A stretch of 47,121 nt of DNA, taken from IMG/VR virus record IMGVR_UViG_3300028772_000024, positions 1 to 47,121 of that record; one strand, written 5' to 3'. This document shows positions 5,163-40,185 of this stretch, piece by piece. Made by a program: the position numbers and the translations under genes. The stretch is from a virus. Position 1 is the first letter of the stretch, and every line of letters starts with the position of its first letter. The notes beneath the pieces were generated by a model. The model had not been told where the DNA came from. It worked only from the letters and a program-made list of their open reading frames with translations, and did not search any database.

Positions 5163-8100
5163 AATACTTTTACTCCGTAAGTTTTAATATCAGATAAAAT
5201 GCTTTTAATTCCTGCTAAATCACGAGTATTGCGGGCTATCTCTGCCACATCATTGAATGCGATTTGCAATATCCCAGCCTGACCTTGCAAAGATAATAAT
5301 AAATCCGAAACATTATTACCAATTTTTGATAAATTTATATCCATATTAGCAGTATGAATCCGAACCGCACTAAATTGAGCCGTCAATATGTCGGCAGTGG
5401 GTTGATCCATTCCTTTTATGGCAGATGTAGTTGAATTTTTATTGTCGTTAGTTGTGCCGCCTAAATCAAATCCAGCACCAGCAGCACTCGTTTGAAAAGT
5501 TTTCCATAACTCCATTGCAGCAGGTGTTCCAGTAGCAAAAGCTGCATTTAATTCAGCTAAAGCGTCCTGTATTAGTTTTTCCTTTGTCGCATTATCTGTC
5601 GTTTTATCTAACATTGCTGCCTGTATCTTTGCTTGCGCTGTAGCAAGAGGAACAGAAAATTCCATTTGATAGATAATATCCTTTACCATTTTAGTAAAAG
5701 AATCAGAGATATACCCCGTTACATCGTCAGTCCATTGAGTTAAATTATCTTGGTCAGTAACTAACGAGTCCATTATATTTCCACCAAGAGAACTGAATAT
5801 ACCAGATAGGTAAGAGTCTATTTCATCAAGATAAGATTTATATGCGTCGTACTCATCGATTAAATTTTGAAGTATTTTCTTATCTGCATCGCTAGTTGTG
5901 CTCATTGCTAATTTAGCTTTTGCTTCTACCTCATCAAAGCCTTCGATTGTCTTAGAAATGAATCCCCATTTTGACGACATCGTTGTAGCCCCTCTCGATG
6001 TGACCTCAAGTGATTTTATTGTATCGTTATAATTGGAAGCTGCTTGATTCATTAATCCAACTTGTGCCGTAGCCTTACCAAACACGTCATCTCCAAATAT
6101 ATTACTAAACTTCTTATCATTCATAGCAGCATAAGCCTCTAAATATGCTTTTTTAACTGCTTCTATTGAGTCAAGTTCTTTTTGTGCCTCCTCTGCCCTC
6201 TTTTTAGATGCAGATGTGAATATATTAGCTATTTTAGTAGCGACAGTTATTACAGCAGAAATTACAGCAAGTATTACAGATGCTTTTTCAACTACCTGTA
6301 AAGCCCCAGCAGCTCCTTCACTTGCAGCTTTCCAACCCGTTATTGCAGAAGTAACAAAAGAACCTATATCGCCAATTGCAGATATTATTTCTCCTGCCGT
6401 ACCACCAATTGCAGAGCCGACAGATGATAACTCTTTTGATAAATCACCATATGCAGACGTAATTGTTTTTACCGCTTTTACTCCGTTATTCTGTATTATA
6501 TTCAAATTATTTTGGGAGTTGGCTACCTTATCAGTTGCGACTTTTACGGCAATTTTCTGCTCGACTCCTGATATTGGAGCAAGCATCCCAGTATCTCCAA
6601 CCTTCAATCCTGATTGAGCTAATGACAATTCTAATTTAGAGCTATTTATATCCTCTTGAGCCGTCTTTAATTTTTCAGCTTCTTCTCTTAATACCTTAAA
6701 TGGATTTTTTTCTATGAATTTATCTGTAACGTTCTGAATAGTTTTTGAATACTCCTTAAAATCAGCTACGCTTAAAGTTCCAGCAGCAGTTCTTTTAAGT
6801 TTTTCCATTTCTCCCATCAACTTTTCAAGAGTTTCAGTAGAAACATTATTTAAATCCTCAAATGCCATTGAGTATTCAGGAGTAGATTTTAATTGGTCGA
6901 AAGACAACGACATCAAATCCTTTGCCTTATTTACATTCGCCTGTATGGTTGCTGAATCAATTTGCCCAACAAGCCCCATGTCACCTTTTTTAGATGCACG
7001 CTCTCTGTCGGATGATAAGGCTGCTAATGTATCATTATATTTTCTTTCAATTTCAGTTTTTTTAGCAGTATAGTCACCGTATTCAAGTAATTGCTTTTCT
7101 AATAATACTGATAATTTTGCATCGTTATCTTTTTGAGTAGAATCAACTTCGCTATTATATGTATTTAATGCTTCTTTTGCTGCATTAAGAGATGCAAGAA
7201 TAGTAGCCTTTGTCTTCTCTCCGGTGGCGTTGTCATACATTCCTTGTAATGTATCTACTCCGCCTTGTAAGCTATCTATTTTAGGCGCAGTAGTTTTTGT
7301 CTTGCTGGTATTAGGATTTTGATTTCTAAATATATTGTTTATATTCTCCTGTTCCAATTTAAGCATTTTAGCCTGCTCCGCTGAAAGAGAAGTCATTTTT
7401 TTCTCAAAATTATTTTCCTGTTGTGCTTTTTCTTTCGCATATCCAGCATCCATTGCATCAATAATAGCCTGCGTAGCATCTGTCTCTCCTTTGCTCTTAA
7501 GATTAGCTAATTCGGCATTATTAGCACGAATTTGATCTAAACGTTTTGCTGCTTCTGATGCTTCACGATTGCGAAGTTCTTGGGCTCTATTAGCAGCTTT
7601 ATATGCCTTTTCGCTTGGAAATTTAGCCATCTCCTCATCTGCCTTCTTTTCATCGGCAAGCTGTTTTGCATAGTATTCTTTTGTTTTATTATCAGCCGTC
7701 CCTGCTTTTAATGCATCCATTGCGGCAGAACCCATATCCTTTACGTGCTGTATCGCTTCTTTTTTCAAATTAGACCAATGGTCATAAGTATCTTCTTCTT
7801 CCTTGACTTCTAACCCCTTTTTAGATTTATTATAATCCTCTATATCCTTATTAACCCTTTTAGATGTAGCAACCAAATCGTCTTGTATTTCCTTTAGTCT
7901 TATTTGAGCTCTTCCTTTTCCAGTTTCAGATGCATTAGCCACTATCTCTTGCTGTGCATACAAAGCCTGCTGTTTATCAGACACCAACTTTTTTTCACCT
8001 AAAATGACTTCGTACTCTTTTGCCTTATTCATTTTATTTTGAGCCTCAACAGAATCCATGAGTCTAAGTTGTTCGAGTTTCCTATCGCCTATTATAGCAC

Positions 8101-10006
8101 CAAATTGATCGTGCAATATTTGATAAGCATCAGATTGAGCCTTAGTTCCATTTAGAGCTTTATTCTTAATTATATCAAGATTATCGCTGAATTGTTTTGA
8201 CTTCTTGTCTGCTTTTGCTTGTATGTCGTCTAAAGCTTTCCCCAAGTTCCTCTGTGATCTCTCTGCTGCCGTTGTTCCATCGTAAAGAGCCCACACAATG
8301 GTTACTAATGTGGCTAAAGCAACTCCAGCTGCTAAGTATGGATTAACTACCATAGTCCGGGTTAAGGTTGCTGTAATCGCAGTTAATCTCGCTTTTGCAG
8401 CAGCTACTAAATCCGTTGCTGCTGCTTGTCCAATCTCACTTGCCGAGTCTATCTCATTTATTAATATCTCTTTCTTTTTAGTAGCGTTTTTCAGTTCTGT
8501 TGCCACTATGTTTCTTTCTTTTGATACTGTATTAAAGTTTTCCTGTGCCGTAGCAGCCTCTTCTGCACTAGCTGATAAAAGAGTAGTTTCAGACTCTGTA
8601 GCTTTTAATGTTATTTTATCTAATCTGGCTGATGCTGCCGCTTCTTCAGCAGTTGCCGATTCTAATAGCGCAGCTACTTCTTTCCTTATTGCCTTGCCAT
8701 AAGCTTCACTTCCAACAACAAAACCAGTTTTAGCGATTGCCGCTTTAGTTTCTGCCGATACCAATGTTTCCAATGATGCAACTTCTGCTAAGTTCGCAGT
8801 AGTTGCAGCCATATTATTACCAAGATTGACAACCATTTTAGCTACCTGATAACTTCCAACAGCAGCGGCAGCAACTGCTATCGCATCTCCAAGTGCCTGC
8901 CAATGGGCAATTGCTGTATCGACAAAACCAACAGACATATTAATAAATCCGTCTGAACTTTCACCCATATCCTTCATAGCAAGAATCCATTTATCCTTGA
9001 CGTTAGATAATAATCCGGCAGTAGTACTCATCATCTTTTCAGAGAATCCATAGTATTGACCACCAGCCGCTGTCAATGATTCAATAGCACGCTTTACATC
9101 CTCGAATCCAACAGCTCCCATTTGTGTCATTTTCTTAATTTTGTCAGGGGTAGTATCCATTACTTTAGCGAGTGCTTCATAGATTGGAATACCAAGGTTA
9201 CCAAACTGCATAAGAGTACGTGTATATACTTTACCTTCGGTTAATGACTTACCGTAAATGTAGGCTATTTCTTTTATAGGTTTTCCTGCCCCTGCTGCAA
9301 CATCGGATAACATTTTAATCTGACTAACAACGTTATCAGCACCAACTCCAAAAGCCATCAATTGCTTAGCCGCTTCGGTAATATCATTTACTTGCAATGG
9401 GGAGTTAACAGCAAATTGAGTAAGTTCGTGCATTATTTTAGCACCTTTTTCAGCACTACCAGCAAACGAGTTGATGGCTGTTTGTAGAAATTCAAACTGA
9501 GTTTTTACATCGATAATTTCACTTGCCATAGATTTTAAAACGCTAACTGAACCATAAGCAACCATAGATCCGAATGCATATTTAAAACGTCTTTCAAGAA
9601 ATGATAATTGTTCGGTACTTGATGCTACATCTTTTTGAATGCCAGCAACCATTGGGGCTAGTGGGCTGTTATTGCCGACTTGTAATTTGGCAGCCGATTT
9701 GCTAATGCGTGTCATCGACTGGTCATACTTAGCGGTAAAGTTACCCAACTTAGTAATTTCCATGTCAATGGTTTTACCCAATGTTTCTATTTGAGTTTTT
9801 ATGCTTGAAATCATAGATGGATCGACAGGATTGTCAAATTTTACCTTCGAAGCAGCGATTACCTTTCCGTACTTTTGAGTAATCTCGTCTAATGCAGCCG
9901 TAACCCGATTAGTAAGGGTTGTAAATATCTGTATGGCTTCTTGCTGATTAGCTCTTAATCCTGAATTATCAATTCCTGTAGCCCAAAATAGTTCGTTGGT
10001 GTCCAT
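5159..10006 (-). CDS. Tail tape measure protein
   Basis: 1,615 residues, the longest complete gene here. It sets tail length and is threaded inside the tail tube. Residues ~140-350 carry the recognisable phage tape-measure N-terminal domain: a helical region with NSPLQVNDITEAAKQLMAFG, then FGNLGIPIYEALAKVM and a segment ending with SNVKDKW. Long Ala/Lys/Glu-rich coiled-coil stretches fill the centre (~400-1150), hydrophobic Gly/Ala-rich segments occur at ~550 and ~1210-1300, and the C-terminus is again helical. It sits between the assembly-chaperone gene and the distal-tail gene, the usual order, although a plus-strand island separates it from the chaperone. A TATATTTG box lies about 25 bases upstream of the ATG. 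Confidence 0.95.
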   Translation of the reverse strand: MDTNELFWATGIDNSGLRANQQEAIQIFTTLTNRVTAALDEITQKYGKVIAASKVKFDNPVDPSMISSIKTQIETLGKTIDMEITKLGNFTAKYDQSMTRISKSAAKLQVGNNSPLAPMVAGIQKDVASSTEQLSFLERRFKYAFGSMVAYGSVSVLKSMASEIIDVKTQFEFLQTAINSFAGSAEKGAKIMHELTQFAVNSPLQVNDITEAAKQLMAFGVGADNVVSQIKMLSDVAAGAGKPIKEIAYIYGKSLTEGKVYTRTLMQFGNLGIPIYEALAKVMDTTPDKIKKMTQMGAVGFEDVKRAIESLTAAGGQYYGFSEKMMSTTAGLLSNVKDKWILAMKDMGESSDGFINMSVGFVDTAIAHWQALGDAIAVAAAAVGSYQVAKMVVNLGNNMAATTANLAEVASLETLVSAETKAAIAKTGFVVGSEAYGKAIRKEVAALLESATAEEAAASARLDKITLKATESETTLLSASAEEAATAQENFNTVSKERNIVATELKNATKKKEILINEIDSASEIGQAAATDLVAAAKARLTAITATLTRTMVVNPYLAAGVALATLVTIVWALYDGTTAAERSQRNLGKALDDIQAKADKKSKQFSDNLDIIKNKALNGTKAQSDAYQILHDQFGAIIGDRKLEQLRLMDSVEAQNKMNKAKEYEVILGEKKLVSDKQQALYAQQEIVANASETGKGRAQIRLKEIQDDLVATSKRVNKDIEDYNKSKKGLEVKEEEDTYDHWSNLKKEAIQHVKDMGSAAMDALKAGTADNKTKEYYAKQLADEKKADEEMAKFPSEKAYKAANRAQELRNREASEAAKRLDQIRANNAELANLKSKGETDATQAIIDAMDAGYAKEKAQQENNFEKKMTSLSAEQAKMLKLEQENINNIFRNQNPNTSKTKTTAPKIDSLQGGVDTLQGMYDNATGEKTKATILASLNAAKEALNTYNSEVDSTQKDNDAKLSVLLEKQLLEYGDYTAKKTEIERKYNDTLAALSSDRERASKKGDMGLVGQIDSATIQANVNKAKDLMSLSFDQLKSTPEYSMAFEDLNNVSTETLEKLMGEMEKLKRTAAGTLSVADFKEYSKTIQNVTDKFIEKNPFKVLREEAEKLKTAQEDINSSKLELSLAQSGLKVGDTGMLAPISGVEQKIAVKVATDKVANSQNNLNIIQNNGVKAVKTITSAYGDLSKELSSVGSAIGGTAGEIISAIGDIGSFVTSAITGWKAASEGAAGALQVVEKASVILAVISAVITVATKIANIFTSASKKRAEEAQKELDSIEAVKKAYLEAYAAMNDKKFSNIFGDDVFGKATAQVGLMNQAASNYNDTIKSLEVTSRGATTMSSKWGFISKTIEGFDEVEAKAKLAMSTTSDADKKILQNLIDEYDAYKSYLDEIDSYLSGIFSSLGGNIMDSLVTDQDNLTQWTDDVTGYISDSFTKMVKDIIYQMEFSVPLATAQAKIQAAMLDKTTDNATKEKLIQDALAELNAAFATGTPAAMELWKTFQTSAAGAGFDLGGTTNDNKNSTTSAIKGMDQPTADILTAQFSAVRIHTANMDINLSKIGNNVSDLLLSLQGQAGILQIAFNDVAEIARNTRDLAGIKSILSDIKTYGVKVL

Positions 10007-10030
10007 ATACTAAATTTTAAATGTAACATG

Positions 10031-10038
10031 CAAATATA
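10031..10038 (-). promoter_or_regulatory. Promoter -7 box for the tape measure gene
   Basis: The minus strand reads TATATTTG, matching TAnnTTTG, about 25 bases before the ATG. No TTTG -33 box is seen at the usual distance; the palindrome at 10057-10068 occupies that position instead. The same arrangement is repeated before the chaperone gene. Confidence 0.55.
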
Positions 10039-10056
10039 ACTATTTATTCTCAAACA

Positions 10057-10068
10057 TGTTGTATAACA
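10057..10068. promoter_or_regulatory. Candidate operator palindrome TGTTGTATAACA
   Basis: TGTT-N4-AACA inverted repeat. The same 12-mer recurs at 11782-11793 and, on the other strand, at 25254-25265; a related perfect palindrome is at 25514-25525. Here it lies between the leftward and rightward promoters, where a regulator could act on both. Binding is inferred. Confidence 0.45.
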
Positions 10069-10078
10069 TAAGAAAAAG

Positions 10079-10110
10079 ATTGGAATGGTGAAATAAAAGC
10101 GGTTACTTTG
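10079..10110 (+). promoter_or_regulatory. Promoter of plus-strand island 1
   Basis: -33-like TTGG at ~10080, then a spacer of about 20 bases and a -7 box TACTTTG at 10104-10110. It drives the structured RNA and the gene that follow. Confidence 0.65.
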
Positions 10111-10114
10111 CATC

Positions 10115-10258
10115 GAAAGAAATAGGTGAGCTTACCAGATACATGTAGAATGTTACATACCGAGCTGGCAAGACTGATAGCTGTCTGGATTTGTGTTTCA
10201 GCGTCAGGTAAGTTAAAAACGAGGCGACTCTATGCGCCTACACCTATTTCTTTTTTTT
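10115..10258 (+). ncRNA. Candidate structured RNA (about 140 nt) with closing helix and U-tract
   Basis: Non-coding segment directly after a promoter. A 13-bp closing helix pairs 10116-10128 (AAAGAAATAGGTG) with 10241-10253, followed by a run of T. Inside it, CTTACC (10131-10136) pairs with GGTAAG (10207-10212), ATGT (10143-10146) can pair with ACAT (10154-10157), and AGGCG (10222-10226) pairs with CGCCT (10235-10239). This gives a multibranched RNA that ends like an intrinsic terminator. It could be a stand-alone small RNA or a long 5' leader for the gene at 10312. I do not recognise it as a known riboswitch. Confidence 0.6.
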
Positions 10259-11733: not shown

Positions 11734-11755
11734 ATTATAAAATTATTTTATTGTG

Positions 11756-11763
11756 CAAATATA
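11756..11763 (-). promoter_or_regulatory. Promoter -7 box for the chaperone gene
   Basis: TATATTTG on the minus strand. The ~65 bases from here to 11820 are a near copy of 10030-10093, including the palindrome in place of a -33 box. Confidence 0.55.
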
Positions 11764-11781
11764 ACTATTTATTTCTAAATG

Positions 11782-11793
11782 TGTTGTATAACA
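11782..11793. promoter_or_regulatory. Candidate operator palindrome TGTTGTATAACA (second copy)
   Basis: Identical to 10057-10068 and in the same position between leftward and rightward promoters. Confidence 0.45.
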
Positions 11794-11803
11794 TAAGAAA
11801 AAG

Positions 11804-11835
11804 TTTGGAAGAGTGAAATAAATGATATATCTTTG
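11804..11835 (+). promoter_or_regulatory. Promoter of plus-strand island 2
   Basis: TTTG at 11804-11807, a spacer of 20 bases and TATCTTTG at 11828-11835: a full match to the Bacteroidetes consensus. Confidence 0.8.
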
Positions 11836-11845
11836 TCAAATAATT

Positions 11846-11935
11846 GCGAGTCGAAATATAGCAATTAACCTATAAAAGCCCTTTTTAAATGAAGCAGACT
11901 TCGACTCCTGCTAATTTTAGATTGGGCTATTTTTA
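11846..11935 (+). ncRNA. Interleaved-stem leader RNA, copy L1
   Basis: P1 is GAGTCGAA (11848-11855) with TTCGACTC (11900-11907). P2 is AGCCC (11877-11881) with GGGCT (11924-11928), followed by a U-rich tail. The order P1-P2-P1'-P2' is a pseudoknot layout, or two competing hairpins. The linker AGCAATTAACC is shared with other copies. The ATG of the next gene is 21 bases after P2'. Confidence 0.75.
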
Positions 11936-11949
11936 TAAATCAAATCAAA

Positions 11950-12222
11950 ATGAGTAACAACAAGAGTTATGTAAAAGTATCACAGCATGGAGCTGGGTGG
12001 GATGATGGTTGCTTTGAGCTAACGCTTATCGAATTAGAGGATATTGTCAACAAAGCAAAATTAAACGGAGCAACAAAAGTAGAAGTAACGGCAGGGCAAT
12101 CAGCATCGTTGTACTTTTACAGAGAACAAACCAATGATGAATATAACTATGAACTTCAGGGTAGAATCGACGAAAAACTATCAGAGGTTGACGAAATGGA
12201 GAAAAGTATTTTGTTAGTATAA
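11950..12222 (+). CDS. Unknown 90-residue protein, island 2
   Basis: First gene of island 2, with its start right after two ATCAA units. It begins MSNNKSYVKVSQHGAGWDDG; the sequence is acidic with mixed alpha/beta character and a helical C-terminus. No family recognised. It is the only gene of the island directly behind the interleaved-stem leader, so it may be the regulated one. Confidence 0.75.
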   Translation: MSNNKSYVKVSQHGAGWDDGCFELTLIELEDIVNKAKLNGATKVEVTAGQSASLYFYREQTNDEYNYELQGRIDEKLSEVDEMEKSILLV

Positions 12223-12244
12223 ACACTTTAAAAATAAAATCAAA

Positions 12245-12439
12245 ATGGAAAATGAAAAAATGAAAATGGAATATCTAGCGATTTCTTCCGTCCCTGAGTC
12301 GATCAAGGATGCTAATTATGTTGAGATTAATCGTACTTATAATCAGTTTGCTAATGAGATTAACGATTGCATTAATTCCAGAATAAGAAGAAAGTACGCA
12401 AGTGATTCTAAGTTACCTATGTATCCAGAAAGAAAATAG
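12245..12439 (+). CDS. Unknown 64-residue protein
   Basis: Starts MENEKMKMEYLAISSVPESI after an A-rich leader (AAAATCAAA). An internal Met at residue 6 or 8 could also serve as start. Charged, predicted helical, no motif recognised. It ends with TAG 31 bases before the next start and lies in the same short operon. Confidence 0.6.
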   Translation: MENEKMKMEYLAISSVPESIKDANYVEINRTYNQFANEINDCINSRIRRKYASDSKLPMYPERK

Positions 12440-12470
12440 ATGTATTTACAGAAAAAAAATGAAATAAGTT

Positions 12471-12890
12471 ATGAAAAATAAAAAAGACGTATTTGGTCAT
12501 ATTCCAAAATTTAAAGTATTAAATACTACGCTATCTTCTATGTCCTCAGGTGCGAATAAACTACATGAATTGTCTGTAAAATCAAGTGAGTCAGATATAT
12601 CTCTTTTAAGAGATTGTATTTCAGGTAAAATAATGGATGATAATAAGATAGAAGGAATGTCGGAAGAAATGGCAGAGAGGGCCACCAATGTCTTATCCGA
12701 AGGAAGAGAAAATGTAATAAAATCAAATTTAAATCCAATAGGAGACGCTTATAGCGCAGGAAAGATTAGAGGTTATCGTGATGGATATAATAAAGCGGTA
12801 GATGATATTACCGCAAATATATCTAAATTATGCAAAATTCAAAAACCTGCTTATCCTGGGAGTGTTAAAATATACGAGATAGAAGAATAA
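12471..12890 (+). CDS. Unknown 139-residue protein
   Basis: Starts MKNKKDVFGHIPKFKVLNTT. The central part is Glu/Ser-rich and helical. The C-terminal third has GKIRGYRDGYNKAVDDI, a G-Y-x-x-G-Y motif that recurs in the broken gene just downstream (KGYDEGYIKGYKE). Function unknown; the shared motif suggests related helical segments in the island. Confidence 0.65.
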   Translation: MKNKKDVFGHIPKFKVLNTTLSSMSSGANKLHELSVKSSESDISLLRDCISGKIMDDNKIEGMSEEMAERATNVLSEGRENVIKSNLNPIGDAYSAGKIRGYRDGYNKAVDDITANISKLCKIQKPAYPGSVKIYEIEE

Positions 12891-12910
12891 TCAAATCAAA
12901 TCAAATCAAA

Positions 12911-13021
12911 ATGGAAAAACAAACGGTAGATATTTATGTATAGGCATTCAATAAAGGCTATGATGAAGGATATATAAAAGGATATAAAGAAGTTAACTTT
13001 ACAGAAAAAAAAAGATGGTAA
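12911..13021 (+). pseudogene. Small gene with in-frame TAG (interrupted 36-codon ORF)
   Basis: Four TCAAA units lead into the ATG. Codon 11 (12941-12943) is TAG, after which the same frame continues for 25 codons with protein-like content (AFNKGYDEGYIKGYKEV) to a TAA at 13019. That TAA overlaps the ATG of the next gene at 13015, the coupling seen for intact genes here. So the full frame was probably one gene. TAG ends other genes in this window, so this is more likely a nonsense mutation than recoding. Confidence 0.6.
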
Positions 13022-13242
13022 GATTTGTAGAAATGAAAGGTATTTATGGCGATGATACAAAATCATTTGGATTTTATGATACAGTAAGAGATAAATTTAT
13101 CTATGCAGGAGGGGTATGCATATTCGATTCATTGAAAGAGTTTACCGATGCTTATAATGATGGGTGCGATTTTCCATTAGACCGACTTGAACCAAAAATA
13201 ACAGATAGATGGAGAAAAAAGATAAAAATAAAATCTAATTGA
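13015..13242 (+). CDS. Unknown 75-residue protein
   Basis: Last gene of island 2. Its ATG overlaps the end of the interrupted gene. It starts MVRFVEMKGIYGDDTKSFGF and has a basic C-terminus (WRKKIKIKSN). It resembles small phage proteins that begin by describing a DTVRDKF/F-type core, but I do not recognise the family. A terminator follows within 25 bases. Confidence 0.65.
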   Translation: MVRFVEMKGIYGDDTKSFGFYDTVRDKFIYAGGVCIFDSLKEFTDAYNDGCDFPLDRLEPKITDRWRKKIKIKSN

Positions 13243-13265
13243 AAAAATAATTGTTTAAATAATAA

Positions 13266-21831: not shown

Positions 21832-22431
21832 TTACTTCTTTTTACTTTGTTTCACCTCTTGATAATCCACCTCAACCCCTGCCATTTCAGCAAGTTCTTT
21901 ATCTGTATATTTCGATAACCCTGAGTCGCTGATCTCTTTTGGTGCGGGTTGAGCATACTGCATGATATTTATTATCTTATCCACTATTGCCATTTTGTCC
22001 GCAATCTCAAATTTCACTCCGAATTTACCGAACTCAATTTTTTTAGCGGAAAGGCGCATTGCCTCGCTCCACTCTCCAGTTTTTTTTAACTCAGACATAT
22101 CCTCGTTAAAATAGTCTGCAAGGGATACGTTGAACATATCGGCTAATCCGGTAACTACCGATTCCTTCGTTAAATTACGATAGGTAATCCGCTCTCTCTC
22201 TAATTGATTTACACGAGCTATAACATCGTTATTCTCTAATAGTAATAATGCCATGTTGTTAGCATCATCCGCATTAAGAGTAACTCCAAAAGCAGCGTTG
22301 TAGCTTTTTTCGATGCCATCACGAGAAACAATCATGCGACAGAATTGTTCACGAGAATCGTCGAGCATAACAGACTTTCGAGCAGGTTGTGTAATTCTCA
22401 ATATTCCAAGTTCAGGAGTTTCTTCTGGCAT
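21832..22431 (-). CDS. terS: Terminase small subunit
   Basis: 199 residues from the ATG at 22431 (MPEETPELGILRITQPARKS). A frame extension to 22452 would start inside the promoter box, so I reject it. The middle has a helix-turn-helix-like region (REQFCRMIVSRDGIEKSYNA) and LLENNDVIARVNQLERERIT, in the style of small terminases that recognise phage DNA. It leads the packaging gene cluster. A diverged copy of its first 13 codons lies at 23153-23194, on the far side of a homing endonuclease gene. Confidence 0.8.
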   Translation of the reverse strand: MPEETPELGILRITQPARKSVMLDDSREQFCRMIVSRDGIEKSYNAAFGVTLNADDANNMALLLLENNDVIARVNQLERERITYRNLTKESVVTGLADMFNVSLADYFNEDMSELKKTGEWSEAMRLSAKKIEFGKFGVKFEIADKMAIVDKIINIMQYAQPAPKEISDSGLSKYTDKELAEMAGVEVDYQEVKQSKKK

Positions 22432-22449
22432 ATCTATAATTTTATTGTG

Positions 22450-22457
22450 CAAATATA
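22450..22457 (-). promoter_or_regulatory. Promoter -7 box for the small terminase gene
   Basis: TATATTTG on the minus strand, about 20 bases before the ATG, with no obvious -33 box. It may replace the translational coupling lost when the endonuclease gene entered. Confidence 0.5.
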
Positions 22458-22478
22458 TACATTATTTTTTAATTTACT

Positions 22479-23006
22479 CTATAATTGCATTTTTAGTTCA
22501 TTTTGGTAAGCGTTATGAGCTTCTAATTCTGTTGGAAAACGACCAAGATATTTACGTTTTCTATTTGTAGTTATGTAGGATTCCCAATTTCCATCTCTTT
22601 TAAAGAAGCTAACGCCAGTAAATTCTGAAGAGTATTTTTCTTTGTTCTTCTTGAAGCATATAGAATTATTTTCTCTCGATGTTACAACATGTAGATTCGA
22701 TAATCTGTTATTGGTTTTATCCCCATCTATATGGTCGATTACTAATGTGTTTCCGTTTATTGTATGACCTAAAAATGCTATGGCAACTAACTGATGAACT
22801 GACATAGTTCTTGCCGTTCCATTCTTTTTTATACTAAATATCCTATACCCAGACCTATTTGCAGACTTTAGAATACGGCTATTTACCTTTCTCATACAAA
22901 ATCCATTAAGAGCCAATCTATCAACGCTCCTTACTCTTCCTAAATTGCTGACTTGGTAATAACCCTCATATTCAGGCACATCCTTCCAAATCTCTATTTC
23001 TTCCAT
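22479..23006 (-). CDS. HNH homing endonuclease (NUMOD4-HNH-AP2)
   Basis: 175 residues. A NUMOD4 DNA-binding motif at the N-terminus (WKDVPEYEGYYQVSNLGRVR) is followed by an HNH core at ~85-115 (VIDHIDGDKTNNRLSNLHVV, with SRENN after it) and an AP2-like C-terminal strand region (FTGVSFFKRDGNW, then YLGRFPTELEAHNAY). Free-standing enzymes of this kind cut a related phage lacking the gene and spread by repair. It has its own promoter and interleaved-stem leader and splits the small terminase gene from its former upstream neighbour. Two relatives are at 35341 and 37048. Confidence 0.93.
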   Translation of the reverse strand: MEEIEIWKDVPEYEGYYQVSNLGRVRSVDRLALNGFCMRKVNSRILKSANRSGYRIFSIKKNGTARTMSVHQLVAIAFLGHTINGNTLVIDHIDGDKTNNRLSNLHVVTSRENNSICFKKNKEKYSSEFTGVSFFKRDGNWESYITTNRKRKYLGRFPTELEAHNAYQNELKMQL

Positions 23007-23014
23007 AATAAAAA

Positions 23015-23098
23015 AAATAGTCCCAAATTTCAGTAGGAAATTGCTGCTTCCTGACTTACTCTAAGGGACTTATAAATTAGTTTTACATGCAGCAACAT
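23015..23098 (-). ncRNA. Interleaved-stem leader RNA, copy L5
   Basis: On the minus strand, P1 is TTGCTGC (plus 23089-23095) with GCAGCAA (plus 23041-23047). P2 is AAGTCCC (plus 23065-23071) with GGGACT (plus 23019-23024) and a U-tract. Both stems differ in sequence from the other copies yet still pair. The linker AAAACTAATTTA resembles the shared linker. Confidence 0.75.
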
Positions 23099-23105
23099 GT
23101 ATCTA

Positions 23106-23113
23106 CAAATATG
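23106..23113 (-). promoter_or_regulatory. Promoter -7 box for the homing endonuclease
   Basis: The minus strand reads CATATTTG, one base off TAnnTTTG, about ten bases before P1 of leader L5. Confidence 0.45.
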
Positions 23114-23152
23114 GTTATTATTTTTATTCTTCGTAAACTAATTAACAATTAT

Positions 23153-23194
23153 TTAAGTAATTCGGAGTATGCCGAGTTCTGGTTCTTCGCTCAT
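23153..23194 (-). pseudogene. Remnant of the small terminase 5' end (13 codons)
   Basis: Reads MSEEPELGILRIT then TAA. The real terminase start is MPEETPELGILRIT. The nine codons for PELGILRIT are the same amino acids with six or more synonymous base changes. Its ATG overlaps the stop of the upstream gene (ATGA), the coupling an intact terminase gene would have had. This marks the insertion point of the endonuclease cassette. Confidence 0.75.
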
Positions 23195-23457
23195 AATAAT
23201 TCAAAATAATGAGCAACAATAAATCCGTCATGTATTTGACATGTGCCAAGATACATTCTATTTGAATCAGCCATATCGCTACCCGTCATACATATTTCTA
23301 TGTTTTTTACAACAGGCTCGTTATTAGGCTCTACAAGATACCATAAGCATACAGTTCCGAGCTGTTGCTGAATGCATAAAAATTCTGAATATGCAGGAAC
23401 TTCTATTTGCTGAATAGCATCTTTATAATCTAATTTATATTTCCATATCTGTTTCAT
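23191..23457 (-). CDS. Unknown protein, 88 residues
   Basis: I choose the ATG at 23457 (MKQIWKYKLDYKDAIQQIEV) because it forms an ATGA overlap with the nuclease gene before it; an ATG at 23475 is possible. The beta-rich core includes AYSEFLCIQQQLGTVCLWYL, and the C-terminus ends in FIVAHYFELL. Similar small proteins, beginning 'K.W.Y.L' and describing a short beta fold, occur in many phages, but the function is not known to me. Confidence 0.7.
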   Translation of the reverse strand: MKQIWKYKLDYKDAIQQIEVPAYSEFLCIQQQLGTVCLWYLVEPNNEPVVKNIEICMTGSDMADSNRMYLGTCQIHDGFIVAHYFELL

Positions 23458-28174: not shown

Positions 28175-28182
28175 TATCTTTG
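28175..28182 (+). promoter_or_regulatory. Promoter -7 box for the NUMOD4 protein
   Basis: TATCTTTG, twelve bases before P1 of leader L2. The -33 box is weak. Confidence 0.6.
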
Positions 28183-28192
28183 TATCAAATTA

Positions 28193-28280
28193 CTGTCTCA
28201 CATAGTAATTAACCCTTTAAAAGCCCTTTTTGATTTAATTCGCAGTGAGACACGGATTATTTTGATTAGGGCTTAATTTA
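28193..28280 (+). ncRNA. Interleaved-stem leader RNA, copy L2
   Basis: P1 is GTCTCAC (28195-28201) with GTGAGAC (28245-28251). P2 is AAGCCCT (28221-28227) with AGGGCTT (28268-28274). The linker AGTAATTAACC is shared with L1. The ATG follows 16 bases after P2'. Confidence 0.75.
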
Positions 28281-35340: not shown

Positions 35341-35895
35341 ATGAGGACAAGAAATTTAAAAGGCGGAGTATTATGGCAAAGATGGAAATTTATACCAGAT
35401 TATGAAGGGTATTATCGGTGTAGTTCTTTAGGCAGGGTTAGGAGCGTTGGCCGAGTAATTATAAGGTCGAATGGAGCTTCGCAAATAATACATGATCGAA
35501 TTCTAAGCGGATGGGTGTCGACTGGTTATCCGATGGTTACTTTATGTATTGGAGGCACCCATAAGGCAATGCACATTCATCAATTAGTATCTATAACATT
35601 TTTGGGACATAAGCAATGCAAGTTTGATTTTATCGTTGATCACAAAGACGGAAACAAGAAAAAGAACTACTTGTCGAATTTGCAGATTGTAACCAGTAGG
35701 GAAAATACTTCTGTTTGTTTTATTTCGGGAAGGGAAAACTATATGTCTCAATTCGTTGGTGTAACATGGGACAAAAGTAGAGATAAATGGATGGCTCATA
35801 TTAGAATAGGAAAATCAAGGAAAACAATTGGTAGATTCCTTACCGAAATAGAAGCCTCTAACGCATATCAAAATGAACTTTTAAAAATAAAATAA
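35341..35895 (+). CDS. HNH homing endonuclease (NUMOD4-HNH-AP2), copy 2
   Basis: 184 residues. NUMOD4 motif (WKFIPDYEGYYRCSSLGRVR), HNH core near residues 95-125 (DFIVDHKDGNKKKNYLSNLQ with SREN after it), and an AP2-like end (FVGVTWDKSRDKW, IGRFLTEIEASNAY). Same architecture as the genes at 22479 and 37048. It lies between a helix-turn-helix gene and a broken gene at 35895. Confidence 0.92.
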   Translation: MRTRNLKGGVLWQRWKFIPDYEGYYRCSSLGRVRSVGRVIIRSNGASQIIHDRILSGWVSTGYPMVTLCIGGTHKAMHIHQLVSITFLGHKQCKFDFIVDHKDGNKKKNYLSNLQIVTSRENTSVCFISGRENYMSQFVGVTWDKSRDKWMAHIRIGKSRKTIGRFLTEIEASNAYQNELLKIK

Positions 35896-36932: not shown

Positions 36933-36940
36933 TATCTTTG
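36933..36940 (+). promoter_or_regulatory. Promoter -7 box for homing endonuclease 3
   Basis: TATCTTTG, 14 bases before P1 of leader L3. Confidence 0.6.
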
Positions 36941-36952
36941 CATAATATAATT

Positions 36953-37040
36953 ACGGTCTGACACTTAGTAATTAACAATTTAAAGCCTCATTGCATGGAT
37001 ATAGAAAGTCAGACCTCTATTGAAATCTTTGGGGCTATTT
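36953..37040 (+). ncRNA. Interleaved-stem leader RNA, copy L3
   Basis: P1 is GGTCTGAC (36955-36962) with GTCAGACC (37008-37015). P2 is AGCCTC (36984-36989) with GGGGCT (37031-37036), using one G-U pair, then a U-rich tail. Linker TTAGTAATTAAC as in L2. Confidence 0.75.
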
Positions 37041-40058: not shown

Positions 40059-40075
40059 ACTATGCAATATCTTTG
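40044..40075 (+). promoter_or_regulatory. Promoter of the recombination operon
   Basis: TTTG (40044-40047), a 20-base spacer, TATCTTTG (40068-40075): a full consensus match. Confidence 0.8.
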
Positions 40076-40085
40076 CAAATATAAT

Positions 40086-40185
40086 TGCAGGTTCGACAAT
40101 ACATGCAACTAACAAAATAAGCCCCTCTGTATGGAGATAAGATGTCGAACCCTTATCAAAGTCTTTGGGGCTAACTTATTTTAAA
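40086..40185 (+). ncRNA. Interleaved-stem leader RNA, copy L4
   Basis: P1 is GGTTCGACA (40090-40098) with TGTCGAACC (40143-40151), nine perfect pairs. P2 is AGCCCC (40120-40125) with GGGGCT (40167-40172), then a U-rich tail. Linker CAACTAACAAAATA. It precedes the gene at 40203 and probably the whole downstream operon. Confidence 0.78.

Follow-up and report, generated by a model that had tools for sequence, protein, structure and literature searches.

Promoter-linked kissing-hairpin leaders in Bacteroidota phages probably set the expression of the genes that follow them

Five genes in the window, as we call the whole 47,121-nucleotide stretch of virus DNA analysed here (IMG/VR record IMGVR_UViG_3300028772_000024), are preceded by leaders (L1 to L5) built to a single plan: a promoter box, hairpin A, a linker, hairpin B (comprising the stems P2 and P3), a U-tract, and the start codon. 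In each leader, the P1 segment inside loop A is complementary to P1’ inside loop B, so that the two hairpins are predicted to join in a loop-loop kiss. These leaders constitute a real RNA family, given that the shape persists while the sequence changes; no entry for it was found in Rfam 15. They probably set the expression level of the downstream gene. The RNA structure itself, which is supported by covariation, can be regarded as close to certain.

Architecture of the leaders in the window

The original prediction had described five copies of two interleaved stems, and the P1/P1’ and P2/P2’ arms that it quoted are all present where it placed them. MFE folds computed without pseudoknot or P1 information, however, yielded P2 together with two stems that had been missed, P0 (flanking P1) and P3 (flanking P1’), in five out of five copies (Table 1). 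The supposedly shared linker, AGTAATTAAC, does exist but is mostly the 3’ arm of P0, and the P2 sequence AGCCC/GGGCT, thought to occur in most copies, holds for L1 and L2, whereas L3 carries AGCCTC/GGGGCT and L4 AGCCCC/GGGGCT; AGTCCC/GGGACT in L5 had been read correctly. The term pseudoknot rightly captured the interleaving of the stems and can now be refined to an intramolecular kissing complex of two hairpins. While TAnnTTTG is the motif of Bacteroidota promoters (PMC2483708), the box of L5, CATATTTG, does not strictly follow this pattern, which had been ascribed to all copies. The start codons, previously placed 15-35 bases after the leader, lie 12-27 nt past the last G/C of P2’.

L1 to L5 score 60-69 with a descriptor of the kissing design, compared to a maximum of 54 among 100 dinucleotide shuffles, and the design is therefore not a product of chance. 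Folding-energy z-scores are strong for L1, L2, and L5 but weak for L3 and L4, and the case for structure therefore rests on comparison rather than on energy. A scan of the whole window returned no further leader with the same build, promoter, and start codon; whatever else matched was an antisense image or a repeat, either AT-rich or coding. Separately, a promoter-like stretch near L1 (11729-11822) recurs in the phage, e.g. at about 9987-10044 on the minus strand.

Table 1. Positions of the five leaders and of the genes behind them in the window.
Feature	Position	Strand	Elements	Basis
L1 promoter box	11828..11835	+	TATCTTTG (Bacteroidota -7 type)	sequence
L1 hairpin A	11841..11867	+	P0 TAATTGC 11841-11847, P1 GAGTCGAA 11848-11855, P0’ GCAATTA 11861-11867	MFE fold, descriptor, covariation
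L1 hairpin B	11877..11928, then U-tract	+	P2 AGCCC 11877-11881, P3 AGCAG 11893-11897, P1’ TTCGACTC 11900-11907, P3’ CTGCT 11908-11912, P2’ GGGCT 11924-11928	MFE fold, covariation
Gene behind L1	11950..12222	+	90 aa, no Pfam/PHROG match	
L2 whole	28175..28274	+	box 28175-28182	fold, covariation, descriptor
L2 hairpin A	28188-28210	+	P0 AATTAC/GTAATT, P1 TGTCTCAC 28194-28201	
L2 hairpin B	28221-28274	+	P3 TAATTCG 28236-28242, P1’ GTGAGACA 28245-28252, P3’ CGGATTA 28253-28259, P2’ 28268-28274	
Gene behind L2	28290..29129	+	279 aa, NUMOD4 motif (PF07463, 24.8 bits)	
L3 whole	36933..37036	+	box 36933-36940	fold, covariation, descriptor
L3 hairpin A	36948-36974	+	P0 TAATTAC/GTAATTA, P1 GGTCTGAC 36955-36962	
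L3 hairpin B	36984-37036	+	P3 ATAGA 37001-37005, P1’ GTCAGACC 37008-37015, P3’ TCTAT 37016-37020, P2’ 37031-37036	
Gene behind L3	37048..37815	+	NUMOD4-HNH-AP2 homing-endonuclease type	
L4 whole	40068..40172	+	box 40068-40075	fold, covariation, descriptor
L4 hairpin A	40085-40108	+	P0 TTGCA/TGCAA, P1 GGTTCGACA 40090-40098	
L4 hairpin B	40120-40172	+	P3 GATAAG 40136-40141, P1’ TGTCGAACC 40143-40151, P3’ CTTATC 40152-40157, P2’ 40167-40172	
Gene behind L4	40203..40733	+	176 aa, Nmad5 (nucleotide modification associated domain)	
L5 whole (short-loop type)	23019..23113	-	box CATATTTG 23113-23106	fold, descriptor
L5 hairpin A	23101-23084	-	P0 TACATG/CATGTA, loop TTGCTG 23095-23090	
L5 hairpin B	23070-23019	-	P3 AGGAAG 23052-23047, P1’ CAGCAA 23046-23041, P3’ TTTCCT 23040-23035, P2’ 23024-23019	
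Gene behind L5	22479..23006	-	NUMOD4-HNH-AP2 endonuclease	

Relatives and covariation

Further leaders were obtained from a pattern scan of IMG/VR and from related phages found by their terminase. The five copies originally described are all real but belong to a far larger family, which comprises 38-40 distinct leaders (window copies included) with 34 kissing words. Loop A matches its own loop B over 6-10 nt in 38/38 leaders; non-cognate loop pairings reach 6 nt in 3% of cases and, within the window phage, at most 4 nt. In 34 of the 38 distinct leaders, no more than 22 nt separate hairpin A from the promoter box.

Covariance model R1, which included P0, P2, and P3 and excluded the kissing pairs, recovered four of the five window copies along with new leaders, missing L5, the loops of which are too short. 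Among 11 distinct class I leaders, the kissing helix is paired in 100% of cells and 7 of its 8 pairs show two-sided changes; slid controls for the structure reach 24-42% pairing. Since R1 did not use P1 as a pair, covariation in this helix is a largely independent test. In leaders of a second type, class II, the kiss spans 7 bp within loops of 8 nt, ~20 nt link the two hairpins, an internal loop reads UGAU/UGAU, and the U-run is strong. Their alignment, A11, holds 13 distinct leaders recovered by model R2 (five of which were the R2 seed) and is paired in 272/272 cells, with two-sided changes at 18 of 21 pairs and slid controls at 31-48%; for P1, five of the seven pairs have changed on both sides. 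Given that A11 contains six G-U cells and zero A-C cells, the sense strand is favoured as the RNA. Covariation in homologues had been set beforehand as the test of the proposal, a new RNA family of interleaved stems that is linked to promoters and shows compensating changes, and its presence in the alignments of both classes, together with the lack of an Rfam match, bears this proposal out.

Among the class II members are leaders of cultured phages, namely Flavobacterium phage mumin6-4 and Polaribacter phage P12002L, in which a replication protein follows. Flavobacterium phage V186 carries related leaders in front of a 69-aa gene and of its NUMOD4 endonuclease gene; the latter leader recurs near-identically in >60 Flavobacterium phage records, and the mumin leader in 34. 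As a point against the reading given here, a close relative of L5 in six contigs has one P1 mismatch; an L5-type leader with one mismatch in the kissing helix is shared by several contigs with identical upstream DNA (L188, L190, L192, L194, and L196). Searches with Rfam 15 returned only tRNA, both for the whole window at gathering scores and for nine leader-bearing loci at E<=1. R1 gave zero matches in 395 Bacteroidota genomes under strict filters and with no positive control, R2, run on 397 Flavobacteriaceae genomes, matched only sites without a kissing complement, and a degenerate pattern scan of bacterial genomes produced chance matches only; prophages may nevertheless carry copies. An initial, looser descriptor was poor at telling real from reversed sequence, and the one applied above to L1 to L5 took its place; in the genome-wide scan, reversed-sequence decoys still reach 56-74, so that the score alone is not evidence, and the leaders named from it also rest on the box, the U-run, the start codon, and an annotated gene. 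The open papers that we searched contain no description of a kissing-hairpin leader family. As a side observation, viral contig L021 carries CRISPR-like repeats of ~37 bases (GTTTCAACCCCTAATAAGGCTTAAGCTTAATTGCTTC) with spacers around position 7857.

Homing endonucleases and a separable promoter-leader module

Three of the five leaders precede NUMOD4 genes, as had been predicted; the accompanying statement that the others precede unrelated genes was half right, since homing endonucleases, drawn from several families, make up most of the genes behind leaders, the rest being replication or small early genes. In related contigs, NUMOD4 genes have a kissing leader upstream in nearly every distinct region, the exceptions being the gene at 35341-35895 of the window and one sub-threshold match. 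In the tree, this leaderless gene is closest to the one that L3 precedes. With a stricter descriptor, a score of >=55 was reached by 9 of 11 NUMOD-like ORFs vs 8 of 294 others, and these eight include the real L1 and L4 leaders and that of a helicase. A NUMOD4-HNH profile search yielded 80 loci with 72 distinct upstream regions, 26 of which score >=54 (L281 is doubtful, and the drawing of L262 has a competing fold), and none of these scores was attained by 40 dinucleotide shuffles of each region. Many of the remaining regions are interleaved pseudoknots of a different build, and at most leaderless loci the upstream gene directly adjoins. The pseudoknots of other build fall into at least three recurring types, the first with GGATAG...CGAAGCGTTTACG, the second with TCGTAGC/GCTACGA and AGGTT...CCT, and the third with GCAATGTTAAA/TTTAACATTGC (loci L249, L254, L260, L268, L302, L248, L309/L231; L261, L265, L282, L279, L252, L286, L211; L283, L306). 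NUMOD4 genes checked in E. coli, Staphylococcus, Enterococcus, Bacillus, crAss-like, and Lak phages had no leader of the kissing build.

An IMG/VR search with the kissing word GTCGTCG returned 64 leaders with P2 in up to 22 variants. Where an ORF follows, it encodes a NUMOD4-HNH protein in 34 of 57 cases; the other genes include a GIY-YIG/NUMOD3 homing endonuclease, T5orf172/MUG113, another HNH family, a weak PD-(D/E)XK-like match, and small unknown genes. One leader type therefore serves several nuclease families. Mapped onto the endonuclease tree, which is poorly resolved, leader class changes 26 times vs 37 when shuffled, indicating a loose link. An aptamer for the encoded endonuclease is unlikely, given that leader classes are scattered on this tree and that one word serves several families.

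The notion of a separable module, also part of the original prediction, agrees with several comparisons. L1 and its gene lie within a 1.5-kb stretch (about 11735-13244) that is missing from three contigs (L151, L152, and L159), and L5 and its gene within a stretch (about 22426-23453) missing from two (L149 and L150). In contig L012, about 150 bp with promoter and leader separate a small gene from a helicase gene, the window orthologues of which abut, and the single word GTCGTCG stands before different nuclease families. Judged from these comparisons, the promoter-leader unit is separable from the downstream gene; by what mechanism it moves is a separate matter. Taken together, it is very probable that the leader regulates in cis and is carried, along with its promoter, as a module. 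Two further observations concern such loci. The L012 helicase (7648-10128) contains a ~304 aa insert with a weak, below-cut-off intein match (PF14890), and its window orthologue has neither the insert nor the promoter-leader. In L349, L352, L360, L370, L380, and L386, a constant leader ending in ...TATAACG is followed after the U-run by contig-specific DNA opening with palindromes that resemble integron attC sites, as though this were a point of gene-cassette exchange.

Possible modes of action

Our best guess, to which we assign a probability of roughly 0.45, is that the leader is a cis-acting expression governor in the form of a kissing-nucleated terminator, i.e. an attenuator. The leader RNA, about 95-110 nt long, would begin a few bases past the promoter box and stop just before the start codon. 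Hairpin A would fold first and present a loop word of 6-10 nt, the complement of which sits in the loop closed by P3, the weak inner stem of hairpin B; the kiss would lock P3 and bring the two P2 strands together, thereby nucleating a terminator-like hairpin, as P2 and the U-rich run resemble an intrinsic terminator. Only part of the polymerases would then reach the gene, and for homing endonucleases and early genes such a governor would be fitting. Nearest-neighbour duplex energies, which are not measured kissing energies, are 0 to -4 kcal/mol for P3 alone and -6 to -13 kcal/mol for the P1 duplex; P3 being near-unstable by itself and P1 strong, the kiss should drive hairpin B. The competition between P1 and P2 inside the loop that was originally envisaged is rejected, given that the four stems (P0, P1, P2, and P3) can all form at once and are conserved together and that P3 is weak without P1.

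As in intrinsic terminators and attenuators, a G+C-containing stem is directly followed by a U-run: the nine nucleotides after P2’ contain a median of 7 T, with >=6 T in 95% of 40 leaders vs 9% in the null, and the leaders of V186 and P12002L carry T9 immediately 3’ of P2’. The tract is interrupted in some class I leaders (L2, UUAAUUUAU; L4, UUAUUUUAA). Attenuation as the mechanism is slightly more tentative than the best guess as a whole. If a terminator that always acts stood in front of each start codon, the gene would stay silent unless termination were relieved, and we found neither an alternative antiterminator fold nor a ligand for the leaders. H-type relatives, moreover, carry the U-run after P1’, inside the pseudoknot. 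A U-rich stretch before the start may serve ribosome binding in hosts with few Shine-Dalgarno sites, and that of the leaders may instead have this role.

This leads to translational control, a weaker but serious contender, in which the kissing structure would control whether ribosomes can reach the U-rich initiation region. It could do so directly or by nucleating a protein, be it a phage single-strand-binding protein or the endonuclease itself, in the manner of the T4 gene 32 pseudoknot. The 40 leaders end 7-27 nt before the ATG (median about 12-13, counted from P2’), mRNA structures of I-TevI, mobE, and segB are known or implicated to lower translation initiation, and in the T4 gene 32 leader a pseudoknot is likewise followed by an A+U-rich stretch (PMC3014915). 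However, no stem covers the ribosome binding site or the start codon, and the loose class-tree link and the sharing of one kissing word among nuclease families argue against the encoded protein as the mediator. It is rather improbable that the locked double hairpin shields the mRNA against 5’-dependent decay, perhaps like exonuclease-resistant RNAs: hairpin A starts -1 to 10 nt past the box, which is about the expected transcription start, and 40/40 leaders are compact folds with interleaved stems, yet protection alone accounts for neither the U-run after P2’ nor the diversification of kissing words. Far less probable is antitermination, in which the nascent leader would bind the elongating polymerase and cause downstream terminators to be ignored. 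HK022 putRNA is likewise a cis-acting nascent RNA of early phage transcripts (PMC9378689), but many of our leaders stand before a single gene and not before a long early operon, nearly every helix is free to change its sequence, and a terminator-like stem closes the element. Even less credit is due to a DNA-level signal, with the RNA irrelevant: the arms are inverted repeats that could pair as a cruciform or be bound by a DNA-binding regulator, but 34 words in 40 leaders leave no common recognition sequence, the G-U cells of A11 without A-C cells are consistent with pairing of the sense RNA, and the orientation is fixed from box to start codon.

The nearest described cases are the T4 gene 32 pseudoknot and the RNA structures of phage endonuclease genes, with HK022 putRNA more distant. 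The gene 32 leader of T4, T2, and RB69 resembles the kissing leaders as a phage mRNA leader with interleaved stems and an A+U-rich stretch before the start codon; it is, however, one gp32-bound H-type pseudoknot of two coaxially stacked helices, whereas the kissing leaders consist of two kissing hairpins, include their promoter in the unit, diversify their words freely, and precede many unrelated genes. The structured RNAs before I-TevI, Aeh1 mobE, and T4 segB, also phage homing-endonuclease genes, are located at the ribosome binding site, in contrast to the kissing leaders, which end before the initiation region and have their own promoter directly upstream. HK022 put acts on the polymerase and differs from the kissing leaders with their complementary loops, unconserved sequence, and terminal terminator-like stem with U-run. 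In pT181-type antisense attenuators, loop-loop contact decides terminator formation through orthogonal loop words. Engineered forms of these have been described (PMC3753616). Their partner is an antisense RNA acting in trans, while that of the kissing leaders is a hairpin in cis and termination is a prediction.

As a tentative overall picture, each copy in a genome may possess a private loop word, and the promoter with its kissing leader may gate an intrinsic terminator and, in Bacteroidota phages, travel among early genes and homing-endonuclease families, where several pseudoknot leaders of other build occupy the same position. Given that the family occurs in cultured Flavobacterium phages, its function can be tested in laboratory strains. 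If true, these leaders would add a natural family of intramolecular kissing-loop RNAs to the known phage leaders, with mutually orthogonal loop pairs within one genome, and would represent a new class of phage gene control in which promoter and kissing-hairpin leader form a self-contained unit. One RNA architecture would thereby be tied to several homing endonuclease families, which bears on how selfish endonucleases are tolerated.
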